DNA of 42,130 bases from a virus: positions 1 through 42,130 of the IMG/VR virus record IMGVR_UViG_3300006077_000007; one strand, written 5' to 3'. The notes beneath the pieces were generated by a model, which saw nothing but the letters and a program-made list of their open reading frames with translations, was not told the DNA's origin and searched no databases. Made by a program: the position numbers and the translations under genes. Of this stretch, positions 1-40,882 are shown piece by piece; positions within the stretch are counted from its first letter, which is position 1, and each line of letters starts with the position of its first letter.

Positions 1-513
1 ATAGTGAAAAATATGAAAGATGCAAAAAGGGTAATGAGAGTAAAAAGAAAAAATATAATAACTCAAGACTTCTTAAAAGAAAAGGGTGAAGATTTTAATT
101 CTTTAGATTCAGAAAATAGCTCCAATTCTGAGTGTATTAATTGTGAATTTTGTGATGAATGTGAAAATTGTGAAAATTGTTATTTTTGTATTGCTTCATC
201 TGGCTGTGTCGATTGTGTAAGTTGTGAATTTTGTAATAATTGTGAAAATTGTGAAAATTGTCACGAATGTAACAATTGCAAAATTTGTATATCTTGTAGT
301 AATTGTGATGACTGCGTTTATTGTGGTGGGTGTAGTGCTTCAGAAAGTTCCTACGATTGTTTTCACGTTTGTGATGAAAAAGGAGCTCAAAATAAAGGTG
401 TTTTAAAAGATAAAAGAGCTATAGATTTTTTCAAAAAATTCTCAAAAGAAAAACAAAAACTAGATAGAGCGAGACCAAAACCAAAACCAAAATCGTTCTT
501 TGGTTTATTCTAG
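1..513 (+). CDS. Cysteine-repeat protein, copy 1 (5' end outside window)
   Basis: I do not know the function. Most of the protein is a repeat in which every third residue is cysteine (CxxCxxC, with about 24 Cys in all), interrupted once by IASSG. A short Lys-rich tail ending in SFFGLF follows. The next gene is a paralogue whose matching segment (VKNMKDAKRV) is internal. The frame here is open to base 1, so I read this as a 5'-truncated gene rather than one starting at the GTG at position 4. The 3' third is almost identical in DNA to copy 2, which indicates a recent duplication or gene conversion. The regular Cys spacing could bind metal or form a narrow solenoid; both ideas are inference. Confidence 0.75.
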   Translation: MVKNMKDAKRVMRVKRKNIITQDFLKEKGEDFNSLDSENSSNSECINCEFCDECENCENCYFCIASSGCVDCVSCEFCNNCENCENCHECNNCKICISCSNCDDCVYCGGCSASESSYDCFHVCDEKGAQNKGVLKDKRAIDFFKKFSKEKQKLDRARPKPKPKSFFGLF

Positions 514-534
514 TAGAAACATTAAAGGCAAAAT

Positions 535-1179
535 ATGAAAAAAGAAACAAGTTTAAAAAAGATAGCTGAAACAGTTAGTCCAGTTAGTTCGGTTAATGAA
601 AATATTAATGAATTGATTATTGAAAAGGGAAAATATTCCCTTTTAGTGAAAAATATGAAAGATGCAAAAAGGGTAATGAGAGTAAAAAAAGAAAATATAA
701 TAACTCAAGACTTCTTAAAAGAAAAGGGTGAAGATTTTAATTATTTTGATTCAAAAAATAGCTCCAATTATAGGTGTATTAATTGCGTTAATTGTAACAG
801 ATGTCACAATTGTACTAATTGTGAATATTGTGACGGATGCCTCGATTGTATTAATTGTTATTCTTGTGATGAATGCCTCGATTGTACTAATTGTTATTCT
901 TGTGATGAATGTAATAATTGTAAAAATTGCGGTAATTGTTACGAATGTATCAATTGCAAAATTTGCATATCTTGTAGTAATTGTAATGACTGTGTTTATT
1001 GTGGTGGGTGTAGTGCTTCAGAAAGTTCCTACGATTGTTTTCACGTTTGTGATGAAAAAGGAGCTCAAAATAAAGGTGTTTTAAAAAATAAAGATTACAT
1101 AGATTTTTTCAAAAAATTCTCAAAAGAAAAACAAAAACTAGATAGAGCGAGACCAAAATCGTTCTTTGGTTTATTCTAG
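535..1179 (+). CDS. Cysteine-repeat protein, copy 2
   Basis: A 214-residue paralogue of the preceding gene, starting at ATG after AAAGG with a 21-base gap. Residues 1-75 are a Lys/Glu-rich N-terminal part. Roughly residues 80-160 contain about 27 cysteines in strict register at every third position, with two more just after. The tail ends in SFFGLF, as in copy 1. A 36-bp unit (12 residues, four CxxC steps) is directly repeated around bases 834-906, so the array seems to grow by unit duplication. There is no signal peptide and no membrane segment, so a cytoplasmic location is likely. I recognise no characterised family and assign no function. Confidence 0.8.
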   Translation: MKKETSLKKIAETVSPVSSVNENINELIIEKGKYSLLVKNMKDAKRVMRVKKENIITQDFLKEKGEDFNYFDSKNSSNYRCINCVNCNRCHNCTNCEYCDGCLDCINCYSCDECLDCTNCYSCDECNNCKNCGNCYECINCKICISCSNCNDCVYCGGCSASESSYDCFHVCDEKGAQNKGVLKNKDYIDFFKKFSKEKQKLDRARPKSFFGLF

Positions 1180-2700: not shown

Positions 2701-3570
2701 ATGAATAAATTGAGAAAATTAATGGGAATTTTGATAGTTGGAATGGTGTTATTAATAAGTGGTTGTAAGGAGACAATTCCAGCTGGGTATGTAGGGAAAA
2801 TTTTAGATAATGGTGGGTTTCAACCAGAGGTTTATCCCCCATCAAGAATAACAATGCCGTTTTTGGGACATTCTGAACTAATTCTTGTGGAGACAACCAC
2901 TCAGAAGTTTGTAGAACCAATCAAAGTGTTATTAAAAGATAAACTAACGTTGAATGCTGAAATAGTATTCAGAGGAAGAGTGACACAAAATAAAGAAGTA
3001 TTGAATACAATTTTTAACGATATGAAAATAAAAGGCGAAAAAATACTGACAGAAGATGTATATTTTACTTATGGAAAAATGGTGATTTTAAATACAGCTA
3101 GAGAAGTGATAAGTAAATACAGTGTTGATGAAGTTAATAAAAATTATGGTAGAATAACAAAAGAATTATATAATGAATTACAACCAAAATTAGTTGGGTT
3201 GCCAATCGATATTAGTGATGTTACAATAGGGAACATTGAGTACCCAAAAATCGTAACAGAAGCAATTGAAAAAGCTAAACAAAGAAGAATGGCAATTGAA
3301 CAAGAACAAGCACAAGCTCAAATTGAACTTACTAGAGTTAGAGGGCAAGAACAAGTGGCTAAGGCTCAATATAGAATTAAAATGATGGAAGCTAAAAGAC
3401 AACACGATTATAACAAAATGATATCAGCATCTCTAACTCCAAGAATATTAAAAGCTAGAGAGCTTGAAATAAGAGAAAAATTAGTTGAAGCAATCAAAGA
3501 GAATAAAAATGTGATTTATATGCCTCACGAGTTTTTTAACAAAATGGGTGCTATGAAAACAATAAAATAA
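2701..3570 (+). CDS. SPFH/band-7 (prohibitin-like) lipoprotein
   Basis: 289 residues. The N-terminus has a short basic stretch, a hydrophobic segment (about 8-20) and a lipobox LLISGC with Cys22, so it is probably a lipoprotein. Residues ~25-190 match the SPFH/band-7 plan: PAGYVGKI near the start, a beta-rich middle and 'DVTIGNIEYPKIVTEAIEKA'. After this comes a long charged helix with EQEQAQAQIELTRVRGQEQ, typical of oligomerising SPFH proteins. Cellular relatives form large membrane rings and modulate AAA proteases or membrane order. A phage copy could remodel or protect the host envelope, which is inference. It follows small membrane-protein genes. Confidence 0.8.
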   Translation: MNKLRKLMGILIVGMVLLISGCKETIPAGYVGKILDNGGFQPEVYPPSRITMPFLGHSELILVETTTQKFVEPIKVLLKDKLTLNAEIVFRGRVTQNKEVLNTIFNDMKIKGEKILTEDVYFTYGKMVILNTAREVISKYSVDEVNKNYGRITKELYNELQPKLVGLPIDISDVTIGNIEYPKIVTEAIEKAKQRRMAIEQEQAQAQIELTRVRGQEQVAKAQYRIKMMEAKRQHDYNKMISASLTPRILKARELEIREKLVEAIKENKNVIYMPHEFFNKMGAMKTIK

Positions 3571-33215: not shown

Positions 33216-33800
33216 ATGTTTTATAAAGAAATGGAAGCAAAAAATATTTCAGAAGATGTTTTAGAAATAATAAAAATAAATGGTGAAATATTAAATTTAT
33301 CTCCAAAAAAATCTCTAAAATTTTCTTATTGTGATAATGATATTATATCTTATAACAGTTCATTAGAAATAAAAGAAACTGGAAAAGTTTTGAGTTTAAA
33401 TGGTAATTTATTAGTAACTTATAAAAAGGATGTTGTTAGTGATATAATCACAGTTGAAGATGGCGTTGATTTGAAAAAATTAATTTCAGACACATTTAAC
33501 GATATGGATGAAACTACAACTGAAACAAAAGCTGAAAAAGAAGCTAAAAAAGAAGCTGAAGTAAAAGCTGAAAAAGAAGCTGAAGAAAAAGCTGAAAAAG
33601 AAGCTGAAGTAAAAGCTGAAAAAGAAGCTGAAGTAAAAGCTGAAAAAGAAGCTGAAGTAAAAGCTGAAAAAGAAGCTGAAGTAAAAGCTAAAAAAGAAGC
33701 TGAAGTAAAAGCTAAAAAAGAAGCTGAAGCAAAAGCTAAAAAAGAAGCTGAAGTAAAAACTAAAAAAGAAGCTGAAGTAAAAACTAAAAAGACTAAGTAA
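33216..33800 (+). CDS. Protein with long Lys/Glu/Ala repeat tail
   Basis: 194 residues. The start is ATG 33216, nine bases after AAAAGG; ATG 33212 is out of frame and stops at once. Residues 1-105 are a small globular domain with strands (SLEIKETGKVLSLNGNLLVTY). Residues ~106-194 are repeats of EAEVKAEK-type octapeptides, encoded by a 24-bp DNA unit repeated about ten times. The tail would form a long charged helix. Its place behind the capsid gene suggests a head-associated protein, perhaps a DNA- or shell-binding one, but this is not proven. Confidence 0.6.
   Translation: MFYKEMEAKNISEDVLEIIKINGEILNLSPKKSLKFSYCDNDIISYNSSLEIKETGKVLSLNGNLLVTYKKDVVSDIITVEDGVDLKKLISDTFNDMDETTTETKAEKEAKKEAEVKAEKEAEEKAEKEAEVKAEKEAEVKAEKEAEVKAEKEAEVKAKKEAEVKAKKEAEAKAKKEAEVKTKKEAEVKTKKTK
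33531..33790 (+). repeat. 24-bp coding tandem repeat
   Basis: About ten copies of a GAAGTAAAAGCTGAAAAAGA-type 24-bp unit inside the preceding gene. Copies differ mostly by GAA/AAA and GCT/ACT changes, suggesting expansion followed by point mutation. Copy number may vary between isolates. Confidence 0.75.
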
Positions 33801-37927: not shown

Positions 37928-40882
37928 ATGGCTGGAAAAGTAATTGTACAAGAATACGACTTCTCGAGCTTTGTACCAGCAATGTCTGGAATAAAGGCGT
38001 CGATAGTTGTAAATTCTTCAAAAGGTGAAATAAATGTACCCACATTTATTACGGATGTAGAACAATACATTGCGAAATACGGAGAACCACATCCAAGTAG
38101 AGGTGTCTCAGAATATTCAGCAATAACATATCTTACATATGGTGGACCAATGTATGTAGTTAGGAGTGCTCATAACACTAAACAAGGGAAATTAAGTGGA
38201 AACGACCCAAAATACCCTTGTGCTTTAGTGAGAAGTAAAATTGATGCAATACCAGCTTCAAATGTTATTCCTGACCCAGATTATGTTCCGCAAAAAGTTT
38301 TAGAACCTTTAGATGGTTTAACACAACACGAGTTAGATGCATATAATTTCTCATCTTATAGTACTCATAGAGAATATGAATATAAAGATATTGGAATAAT
38401 GAAATCAGTTTTAAAATCTAAAGAGATGAAAGTTTTTAGCTTTGCAGATTTGGAAAAGGGTGATAACGTAAGTTTTACACCAACTATATATGTAAAAACA
38501 GCAGTTTCAAAAGGCTCAAAAACAATAACAGTCAATGATACTTCTTTTTGTAATGTTGGGCAAAATATAGAGATACTTAACACAAATCTAAAAATATCAG
38601 CAGTTGATTTTACAAAGAATATTATAACTTTGGAATTTGCTTTAGAAATGGACTTATCAAAAGATTTTCCAATTCATATTGTACCATTTGATAAAAGTGC
38701 TAATTATAAAATAGAAGCTTTAGAGGAAAAAACAATAAATTATGATTTATTGACATTGAATAAAGCATTGACTGCAGATAAAGCTGAACCAGTGAGATTG
38801 GTAACAATAGCTGAGAAAACTTTAAAACAATTAGATGCAACTTTTAGTGATGTTGAAGTGGTGAGTAAAATTGATGATAAAACAATAGAAGTCAATACGG
38901 TAAATGGGATTGTTGCTAAACATACATTAAAAATTGATGGCAAGGAATATGTAGTTGAGAGCGTTGATGCTAACAATAATAAAATCGTTTTTGCTTTAGC
39001 TAGTACCCAAACACTTGTAGCAACAGCAAAAGATGCCGTCACTTTGATGGAGAGAACATATAAAGTATTTGAAGACCCAGTTTTCGTGGTAAGAAGTATA
39101 AAAGCTTCCACTCAATTAATTGTCACAAATTCTGATTATATCAAAAATGGTGAAATAATTGCTTTGGGTTCAGGACTAACAACAGCAGAAGACGAGACAA
39201 AGTTGATTTCTAAAGATTTATACAAAGAAACTCAAAAATGGGTAACTTTAGATAAACCACTTGTTGCTTATACAACGTATAGAGCTTATAAAATGACTCA
39301 TTCTGAATTTGAAGAAAGAGATATATTTTTAGTACATTCAATAAATCAAGGCGTATGGGGAAATGAAATTGAATTAAAAATTTCTGACTCAAAGATAAAA
39401 GACGCCTTTCATTTAGAAGTATATAAAAATGGCGTAACAACTGGAGAAAAATTCCATTGTTCAATGCAATATAAAAAAGATGGTTTTGGAAATCAGCTTT
39501 ATATTGAGTCAGTTATAAACGGAAAATCAGCTTATATAGGTGTAAAAGTAAATTCAGCAAATGTTGATGATAAGAATGTTAAAAATAATCCATTAACAAA
39601 CAATTACAGTTTGTGGAGAAAAGACCCAATTGATATTTTTTCACCAATAAAACCAACAAGTGTTAAAATTGAAGAGGATGTAATTTTAGGCGATGTTGAG
39701 ATAATGGTGAGTGAAAATAGTGTTTTCAAATTAGGTAATAGAATTAAATTCGAGGGCTTCCCTGAAGAATATAAAATTTTAGATGTTACAACAGATGTAA
39801 ATAATAACAAGGTTATAAAACTTGATAGAAAAATCAAAGCTAACAAAATACCTAATGACACAACAGTTTTAAGATATGACCATACGCAATATTTTGCTAT
39901 AACACAATTGGAAAAGGCTTATTTAGGATATGAAGCTCCTTGTGATTTTATTTTAGCTGGTGCAAGTGGAAGTTTAATAGATGCTGGTGTAAATAACTTA
40001 AGAGGTGGAAATTGTGGTTCAGCAGTAACTATAGGTGATTTGATGGTTTCAGCAGACACTTTAAACCATTCAAGATTTAAATTCCAATTATTATTAGATG
40101 GTGGTTTTTGTTATCCAGCTTATGCTCAAAAACTTGTTACAATAGCAGAAGACATTATGACTTGTTTTGTATATCTATCTACAGATATTAATGCTGAATT
40201 AAGTGTAAATTATGTGAATGATATTATAGACTATAGAAATAAGACTGGTATAAATTCAAGTTGGGCTGGTATTTTTACTCCACACGTGAAAATTTATGAC
40301 CAATATAATCAAATGGAAGTGTGGGTGTCGCCTGAAGCCTTTGCTGCGAGCAAACAAGCCTTTGTTGAGAGAAGCGTTGTGATGTGGATGCCAGCAGCTG
40401 GGTGGAAGTATGGTAAAATTTTAGTTTTAGATTTAGTACAGAAACTAAAACAAGGTGAGATTGATTTACTTAATGATGAACATCAGATAAATTGTTTGAA
40501 ATATGAAGATGGTGATGGTGTTGCTATTTGGGGAAATGAAACTATGCTAACTATGCCTAGTTATCTTCAAATGAGACATATTAGAATGCTTTTGATTTTA
40601 ATTGAAACTGGTTTAAAAGCGTTCTTGAAATATGAGACATTTCAATTAAATGATAGTGAGTCAAGAGATATAATTATCTTTAAACTTAACAAATGGTTTG
40701 AGGACTCAATAGCAAAAGCAGTTTATGATTTCCAAATATTGGATGTTACAAACGATAGCAATGTAAGTAACAGAGAGGGAGTTTTCAGAATTATGTTCAG
40801 CCCTAAAACATCAATGGAAAAAATCGTTTCTCAAGTTGTTGTTACTTCTAAGGGCTTTGATTTTGGTTTAGTAAATATATAA
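37928..40882 (+). CDS. gp18: Contractile tail sheath protein (gp18-like), enlarged
   Basis: 984 residues, against 659 for T4 gp18. The N-terminus (VQEYDFSSFVPAMSGI, ~7-22, and 'YLTYGGPMYVVR') and the C-terminal ~330 residues (from 'CDFILAGASGS' ~672, through QMRHIRMLLILIETGLKAF and 'VVVTSKGFDFGL') follow the conserved sheath core. Between them are about four beta modules of 55-65 residues (~188-240, 308-362, 385-446 and 578-640), each with a pattern like ITVNDTSFCNVGQNIEI and ending in NIITLEFALE. These are probably surface insertions on the tail. The tube gene follows. Confidence 0.9.
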   Translation: MAGKVIVQEYDFSSFVPAMSGIKASIVVNSSKGEINVPTFITDVEQYIAKYGEPHPSRGVSEYSAITYLTYGGPMYVVRSAHNTKQGKLSGNDPKYPCALVRSKIDAIPASNVIPDPDYVPQKVLEPLDGLTQHELDAYNFSSYSTHREYEYKDIGIMKSVLKSKEMKVFSFADLEKGDNVSFTPTIYVKTAVSKGSKTITVNDTSFCNVGQNIEILNTNLKISAVDFTKNIITLEFALEMDLSKDFPIHIVPFDKSANYKIEALEEKTINYDLLTLNKALTADKAEPVRLVTIAEKTLKQLDATFSDVEVVSKIDDKTIEVNTVNGIVAKHTLKIDGKEYVVESVDANNNKIVFALASTQTLVATAKDAVTLMERTYKVFEDPVFVVRSIKASTQLIVTNSDYIKNGEIIALGSGLTTAEDETKLISKDLYKETQKWVTLDKPLVAYTTYRAYKMTHSEFEERDIFLVHSINQGVWGNEIELKISDSKIKDAFHLEVYKNGVTTGEKFHCSMQYKKDGFGNQLYIESVINGKSAYIGVKVNSANVDDKNVKNNPLTNNYSLWRKDPIDIFSPIKPTSVKIEEDVILGDVEIMVSENSVFKLGNRIKFEGFPEEYKILDVTTDVNNNKVIKLDRKIKANKIPNDTTVLRYDHTQYFAITQLEKAYLGYEAPCDFILAGASGSLIDAGVNNLRGGNCGSAVTIGDLMVSADTLNHSRFKFQLLLDGGFCYPAYAQKLVTIAEDIMTCFVYLSTDINAELSVNYVNDIIDYRNKTGINSSWAGIFTPHVKIYDQYNQMEVWVSPEAFAASKQAFVERSVVMWMPAAGWKYGKILVLDLVQKLKQGEIDLLNDEHQINCLKYEDGDGVAIWGNETMLTMPSYLQMRHIRMLLILIETGLKAFLKYETFQLNDSESRDIIIFKLNKWFEDSIAKAVYDFQILDVTNDSNVSNREGVFRIMFSPKTSMEKIVSQVVVTSKGFDFGLVNI

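Follow-up and report, generated by a model that had tools for sequence, protein, structure and literature searches.

Phage proteins with CxxCxxC arrays: a family with a predicted cysteine-core beta-solenoid

The window analysed here is a viral contig of 42,130 bases, the whole of IMG/VR record IMGVR_UViG_3300006077_000007, and it begins with two adjacent genes whose products carry cysteine at every third residue. Arrays of this kind form a real, large, scattered and widespread phage family, which is apparently undescribed; the array itself is most likely a variant of an already known fold, a beta-solenoid with a core of cysteines. The sequences indicate a kept register, core-type substitutions, turnover of units and modular C-terminal domains, and models predict the beta-solenoid fold and a rung of 12 residues. 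On balance, we lean towards a protein in which a thin, right-handed beta-solenoid with inward Cys lies between an N-terminal cap and a C-terminal region, and which would serve as a swappable arm of variable surface.

Two array genes at the start of the contig

The features of the array region are the following.

1..513, + strand: array gene copy 1 (P0002), 170 codons, 5' end missing; 81% identity to copy 2
133..333, + strand: Cys array of copy 1, 7 + 15 Cys; one period-3 position is taken by Ser66 (nt 196-198)
524..528, + strand: possible ribosome-binding site AAAGG, read from the sequence, 6 bases 5' of the copy 2 ATG
535..1179, + strand: array gene copy 2 (P0001), 214 aa; PHROG 15341 match, E 6.8e-15
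685..774, + strand: copy 2 N-terminal cap, aa 51-80; suggestive likeness to a cap found in other phage arrays, NGVs.eFa...N.tN.GCwNC
775..1011, + strand: Cys array of copy 2 with 27 Cys over aa 81-159, period 3 throughout
838..909, + strand: 36-bp direct duplication, equal to 12 residues, four units of the CxxCxx repeat and one predicted rung
1009..1038, + strand: CSASESSYDC, where the array register goes on with Ser and Ser at Cys positions, then Cys
1012..1176, + strand: C-terminal region of copy 2 (aa 160-214); a low-confidence model has a helix at 186-204
1153..1176, + strand: C-terminal PKSFFGLF, the same in both copies

The 5' end of copy 1 is missing because the record begins there; since it begins within sequence common to both copies, further upstream copies are plausible and the assembly may have broken at this point. 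The cysteines of copy 1 lie in residues 45-63 (seven) and 69-111 (15); the break between them, CIASSGC, has Ser66 at a period-3 position, so that the register itself is continuous. The CSASESSYDC tail is in register in both copies. The first-pass annotation had described about 27 unbroken cysteines in copy 2, which agrees with the count over aa 81-159, and an array of 160 residues, which has to be corrected to 79.

The two copies are adjacent paralogues with near-identical 3' ends and differing arrays, as first described: the 55 aligned C-terminal codons show 7 base differences, and changed codons amount to 3/55 in the C flank, 8/44 in the N flank and 27/67 in the array. Their arrays differ by an indel of 12 residues (36 bp). 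The 36-bp direct duplication already noticed was found again as two units, 838-873 and 874-909, with a single base difference, within a tandem repeat of period 36 and 2.9 copies (809-911). Duplication and indel each correspond to four triplets. The turnover of units that had been proposed is visible.

The C-terminal region of copy 2 (aa 160-214) gave no database match. The PKSFFGLF ending occurs in 2 of the 49 plus-strand frames, namely the two array copies; we take this tail, speculatively, to resemble the T4-type sliding-clamp-binding peptides.

A widespread phage family

Searched with twelve Cys codons in register as the pattern, IMG/VR gave at least 120 matching stretches; another pattern, which favoured Asp/Asn ahead of Cys, likewise gave at least 120. 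Many raw matches were simple 9-bp repeats in the DNA, read in a frame of no relevance; after a filter that demanded diverse xx residues, 151 distinct arrays at 112 loci remained among the matches listed, with a median of 26 Cys per array. Several arrays in one phage are common (four in each of two loci). One further locus holds eight array paralogues in 6.6 kb, which mostly share the N-cap type and differ in arrays and tails.

Arrays are present, annotated as hypothetical and so far unremarked, in the isolated Campylobacter phages CP220, CPt10, CP21, CP20, IBB35, CC_R7 and CJLB-14 and in Flavobacterium phage FL-1, and also in Vibrio phage 1.238, whose depositors annotated the product as an insect antifreeze protein (IPR016133). 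Among cellular genome records, those of Helicobacter bilis and Erysipelotrichales are examples with arrays. A tblastn search of plasmids gave no array match, and searches of IMG/VR by peptide patterns returned no close relative of P0001.

The profile searches proposed in the first-pass annotation led to no characterised Pfam family (no match over the curated cut-off for both window proteins and 11 relatives), but they connected the copies with PHROG 15341, of function unknown (E 6.8e-15 and 2.1e-10); all eight arrays tested match it, and the array is thus not restricted to the window phage. This PHROG is a cluster name, for which no fold, function or paper was found. In Pfam, NCBIfam and the literature searched, whose coverage was partial, the arrays have no description; no account of them was found in the literature on the repeat, on Caib/baif in Campylobacter phages or on antifreeze in phages. 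In the CP220 genome paper the word cysteine is absent from the main text (PMC2853527).

That the arrays are a low-complexity DNA repeat translated by chance is largely refuted. The raw matches to simple 9-bp repeats speak for it, but the arrays kept have diverse xx residues and conserved caps, they match a PHROG, and their register survives substitutions. In the window, the + strand contains 34 occurrences of six in-register Cys codons, against 0.00 in 100 dinucleotide-preserving shuffles. The third base of the Cys codons follows the GC of the locus (rho 0.59, p 9e-16, 151 arrays), which is counted as support for translation. The initial assumption of a real coding array was right.

Evidence for a solenoid fold

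According to the proposed model, an N-terminal cap would precede a beta-solenoid of C-x-x triplets and a C-terminal region would end the protein. Each rung would comprise four triplets (12 residues), with Cys inward and both x residues placed outside and in turns, so that thiols, about four to a rung, would form a column in the interior; the variable outer surface would change by gain or loss of triplets or of whole rungs.

Across the 151 arrays, with related and phylogenetically non-independent arrays counted as independent in this as in the other array statistics, successive Cys are 3 residues apart in 3952 cases; of the 95 wider gaps, 72 are divisible by 3 (p 3e-17). The residue that replaces Cys in register is Ser in 35/68 cases, Leu in 8/68 and Phe in 7/68, and seldom Tyr or Arg, although these are one base away; replacement mostly by Ser, Leu or Phe with the register kept points to a buried, register-locked position. 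Position +1 after Cys is S/T/R/I/K and position +2 is D/N/G, which fits a short strand followed by a turn. The identity of xx residues is in modest excess at a lag of 4 units, or 12 residues (z 5.6; 3.0 without arrays that contain a recent duplication); this signal, together with the 36-bp duplication and the 12-residue indel, is taken as support for a 12-residue rung.

The AlphaFold model of copy 2 has strands at 98, 110 and 122, with pLDDT about 70 for aa 81-120 and poor values elsewhere (mean of the whole model 41.9). Its best structural match is the Tenebrio antifreeze protein (AFP) 1ezg (Z 7.5, 2.9 A, 73 residues, aa 80-157), where a Z below 8 may, by the comparison tool's own remark, be a common arrangement; the next unrelated chain has Z 4.4. 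Since AlphaFold may have learned 1ezg, this agreement is not fully independent. The PDB sequence search gave weak matches alone, the best again being 1ezg (E 0.025), and Foldseek of the copy 2 model against the PDB gave no match under E 0.001 (E 0.18). The model of a relative, L110, built with 23 sequences, has strands at 89-92 and 101-104 with array pLDDT 27-47, and its structural comparison returned no chain at Z >= 5.

The Tenebrio antifreeze consensus is TCTxSxNCxxAx, with residues 2, 5, 8 and 11 of 12 facing inward and a Cys2-Cys8 pair across each rung (PMC8038014). The Tenebrio and Dendroides AFPs (1EZG, 1L1I, IPR016133) are thus 12-residue right-handed beta-helices with every third residue inward, like the predicted phage array. 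In contrast, their inward residues are C-S-C-A, while the phage arrays have Cys at nearly all inward positions; moreover, the insect proteins have a Thr ice face and are secreted, whereas the phage arrays have neither TCT ranks nor an evident signal peptide. TCT is absent from P0001 and P0002, as read from their sequences, and the copy 2 N-terminus MKKETSLKKIAETVSPVSSVNEN has, by eye, no hydrophobic stretch and no apparent signal peptide. Ice binding was rejected, as Thr-x-Thr ranks are absent; the phage proteins probably serve a different purpose from the beetle one. The novel solenoid suggested in the first-pass annotation stands as a solenoid, which is the best reading, but its geometry has a precedent in the beetle antifreeze protein (PMC8038014).

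Thiol chemistry of the core

Cys occupies 98.3% of the 4045 period-3 positions, a figure inflated because the loci were found by unbroken Cys runs. Packing alone would favour more Ala, Val and Ser, which makes a role of thiol chemistry probable. Zn, Cu(I) or an Fe-S center may be bound by every rung or set of four Cys, the array being a store, a buffer or a conductive column; we consider this possible, though rather doubtful. The near-total Cys occupancy exceeds the need of packing, and a predicted rung, with its four inward thiols, would be suited to a metal, but Ser, Leu and Phe are tolerated at Cys positions with the register kept, and Cys counts follow no multiple-of-4 rule. No ferredoxin or metallothionein match supports it either: the bacterial ferredoxin pattern CxxCxxCxxxCP does not occur, as Cys-Pro is absent, and the window proteins match neither Pfam Fer4 nor any Pfam metallothionein. 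To our knowledge, the CxxC spacing of the arrays is far stricter than in any metallothionein. Metal binding and the solenoid fold are compatible. A bolder form of the same idea, in which a continuous thiolate column forms the core and encloses a filament of stacked metal or iron-sulfur sites, one in each rung, in phages of many hosts, is unlikely; if true, it would be a new metal-protein architecture, a genetically extendable wire or store.

Another possibility to which we give little weight is a disulfide-laddered solenoid, like the beetle AFP, oxidised in the virion or after lysis to a very stable rod. The predicted geometry is the same as that of the Tenebrio protein with its Cys2-Cys8 pairing (PMC8038014). 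However, a signal peptide is not apparent in P0001, odd Cys totals are frequent, and two crossing disulfides in each thin rung would look crowded. Joint loss of Cys affects neighbours only (lag 1, P 0.001), with none at lag 4 or at lag 2, the across-rung distance (P 0.60), hence fixed disulfide pairs are not indicated.

Precursors of RiPPs, heterocycloanthracin-like or ranthipeptide, would combine a leader with a modified Cys-x-x core; this origin is disfavoured and very improbable. CxxC repeats mark TIGR03601 (PMC2674419), the heterocycloanthracin/sonorensin family, which shares with the arrays the Cys-Xaa-Xaa repeats after a leader; a Bacillales array, L198, taken as control, matches it with 42.1 bits over a cut-off of 35, and copy 1, but not copy 2, has a freyrasin-like (NF037957) match below cut-off (19.2 bits versus 30). 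TIGR03601 matches neither window copy, however, and its members are short, with the array at the C-terminal end, and need YcaO-type enzymes; the phage arrays differ, and many of them have folded domains after the array. YcaO was found in 0/35 array-bearing records, which are possibly incomplete, with control genomes positive, and radical SAM in 7/35, five of them Campylobacter phages, with none in the 42-kb window record; these absences make a RiPP role unlikely. The five Campylobacter phages have 6-11 radical SAM domain matches per genome, far above other array-bearing phages. Four short Bacillales proteins, L198 among them, consist of a leader and CxxC repeats and represent a convergent use of CxxC.

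Caps, C-terminal domains and possible function

N-caps fall into several types: WxDxNGNxW...EA..xS..L.NC, with W, D, N and N almost invariant; NGVs.eFa..hPd...N.GCWNC; and PKGN..S..SQ.eAda, LLNNEI.tiDe.yNIN and KEEILKM. The window cap compared with the NGVs type gives an hhalign probability of 91% with the first three Cys and 4.5% without them, so its likeness is mostly due to the inclusion of the first cysteines. C-terminal regions include IGSR..QTT.Y..CGCF.G.L.eF, IHQ.vYeA..WHTC.tTHCRAGW and GL...Y.I.N...s.EEY.

The L110 C-terminal domain matches phage 'beta solenoid', hexapeptide and pentapeptide proteins with probability 1.00. Read directly, the proteins of MA9V-1, phiAGATE, BF766P1 and phiKSUM are hexapeptide solenoids with the IGSR/CGCF domain, and that of LWP01 is pentapeptide-like with the same domain. 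Many Cys arrays have the C-terminal IGSR..TT.Y..CGCF.G domain in common with such phage solenoids (phiAGATE, MA9V-1, BF766P1, LWP01), but the repeat of these solenoids is xGNAxV or A(D/N)LxX, whereas that of the arrays is Cys-based. Because one domain ends both Cys arrays and other solenoids, phages seem to swap the solenoid type before it.

CPR-bacterial proteins ending in GLrhKxYxIxNxxYsxEEY are also CxxC-rich, and their terminal motif matches some phage array caps (hhalign 97.7%); unlike phage arrays, they have period 3 only in part and long non-Cys stretches. A Campylobacter phage relative is annotated as Caib/baif. Six loci encode bacterial proteins (Patescibacteria and others) with Cys partly at period 3 and the GL..Y.I.N...EEY cap shared with some phage arrays.

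Many array relatives end in the C-terminal domain of phage hexapeptide and pentapeptide solenoids; by analogy with the apparent use of those solenoids, we infer an accessory phage protein, a swappable solenoid arm whose variable and mostly acidic outer face would be offered to a partner inside the infected cell. The tandem paralogues, with similar flanks and changing arrays, fit such an arm. On the other hand, the IGSR/CGCF motif is absent from the window's own tail, which matches none of the relatives' C-terminal domains; the domain-swap argument thus rests on relatives and not on the window's C-terminal region, which weighs against the arm.

The acidity could alternatively reflect a DNA-mimic inhibitor, comparable to MfpA/Qnr on gyrase, with a host nuclease or topoisomerase as target, which appears improbable. 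Pentapeptide solenoids do mimic DNA (PMC8145042), and the window arrays are acidic (net charge -9.8 and -16 per 100 aa), but acidity is not uniform in the family (median -5.5, top tenth above +1). Compared with pentapeptide repeat proteins, the window proteins contain no A(D/N)LxX repeat and have no Pfam match.

In the small number of neighbourhoods that were read, the array genes have ordinary phage genes around them: portal and DNA ligase on either side in Campylobacter phages, a clp-like gene and thymidine kinase nearby in IBB35, and a DNA-binding gene nearby in Vibrio phage 1.238. Judged by gene content, the window phage is T4-like, with T4-type ssDNA-binding protein, helicases, topoisomerase II, terminase, head protease and tail sheath. 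The tail sheath (37928-40882) is unusually long, 984 aa, and nearest to Cobetia phage Carin-5 and Yersinia phages YerA41/GN1 (36-39% identity), and the topoisomerase is nearest to Vibrio phages, then Campylobacter phages; with these neighbours, an assignment as a Campylobacterota phage was not demonstrated. A lipoprotein-type gene with a phrog_200 match (2701-3570) lies near the array genes. At 33529-33790, a tandem 24-bp repeat (10.9 copies, 95% matches) lies inside the frame 33216-33800, which ends in EVKTKKEAEVKTKKTK and codes for a basic repeat protein.

Implications

PHROG 15341 gains a testable identity, and its members occur even in Campylobacter phages that are much worked with. Should the model hold, phages and beetles would have reached the same 12-residue coil separately, and the role of dozens of inward thiols in one thin coil would become a sharp chemical question. 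For protein design, these arrays are a useful natural collection of solenoids that vary in length and surface by triplets.
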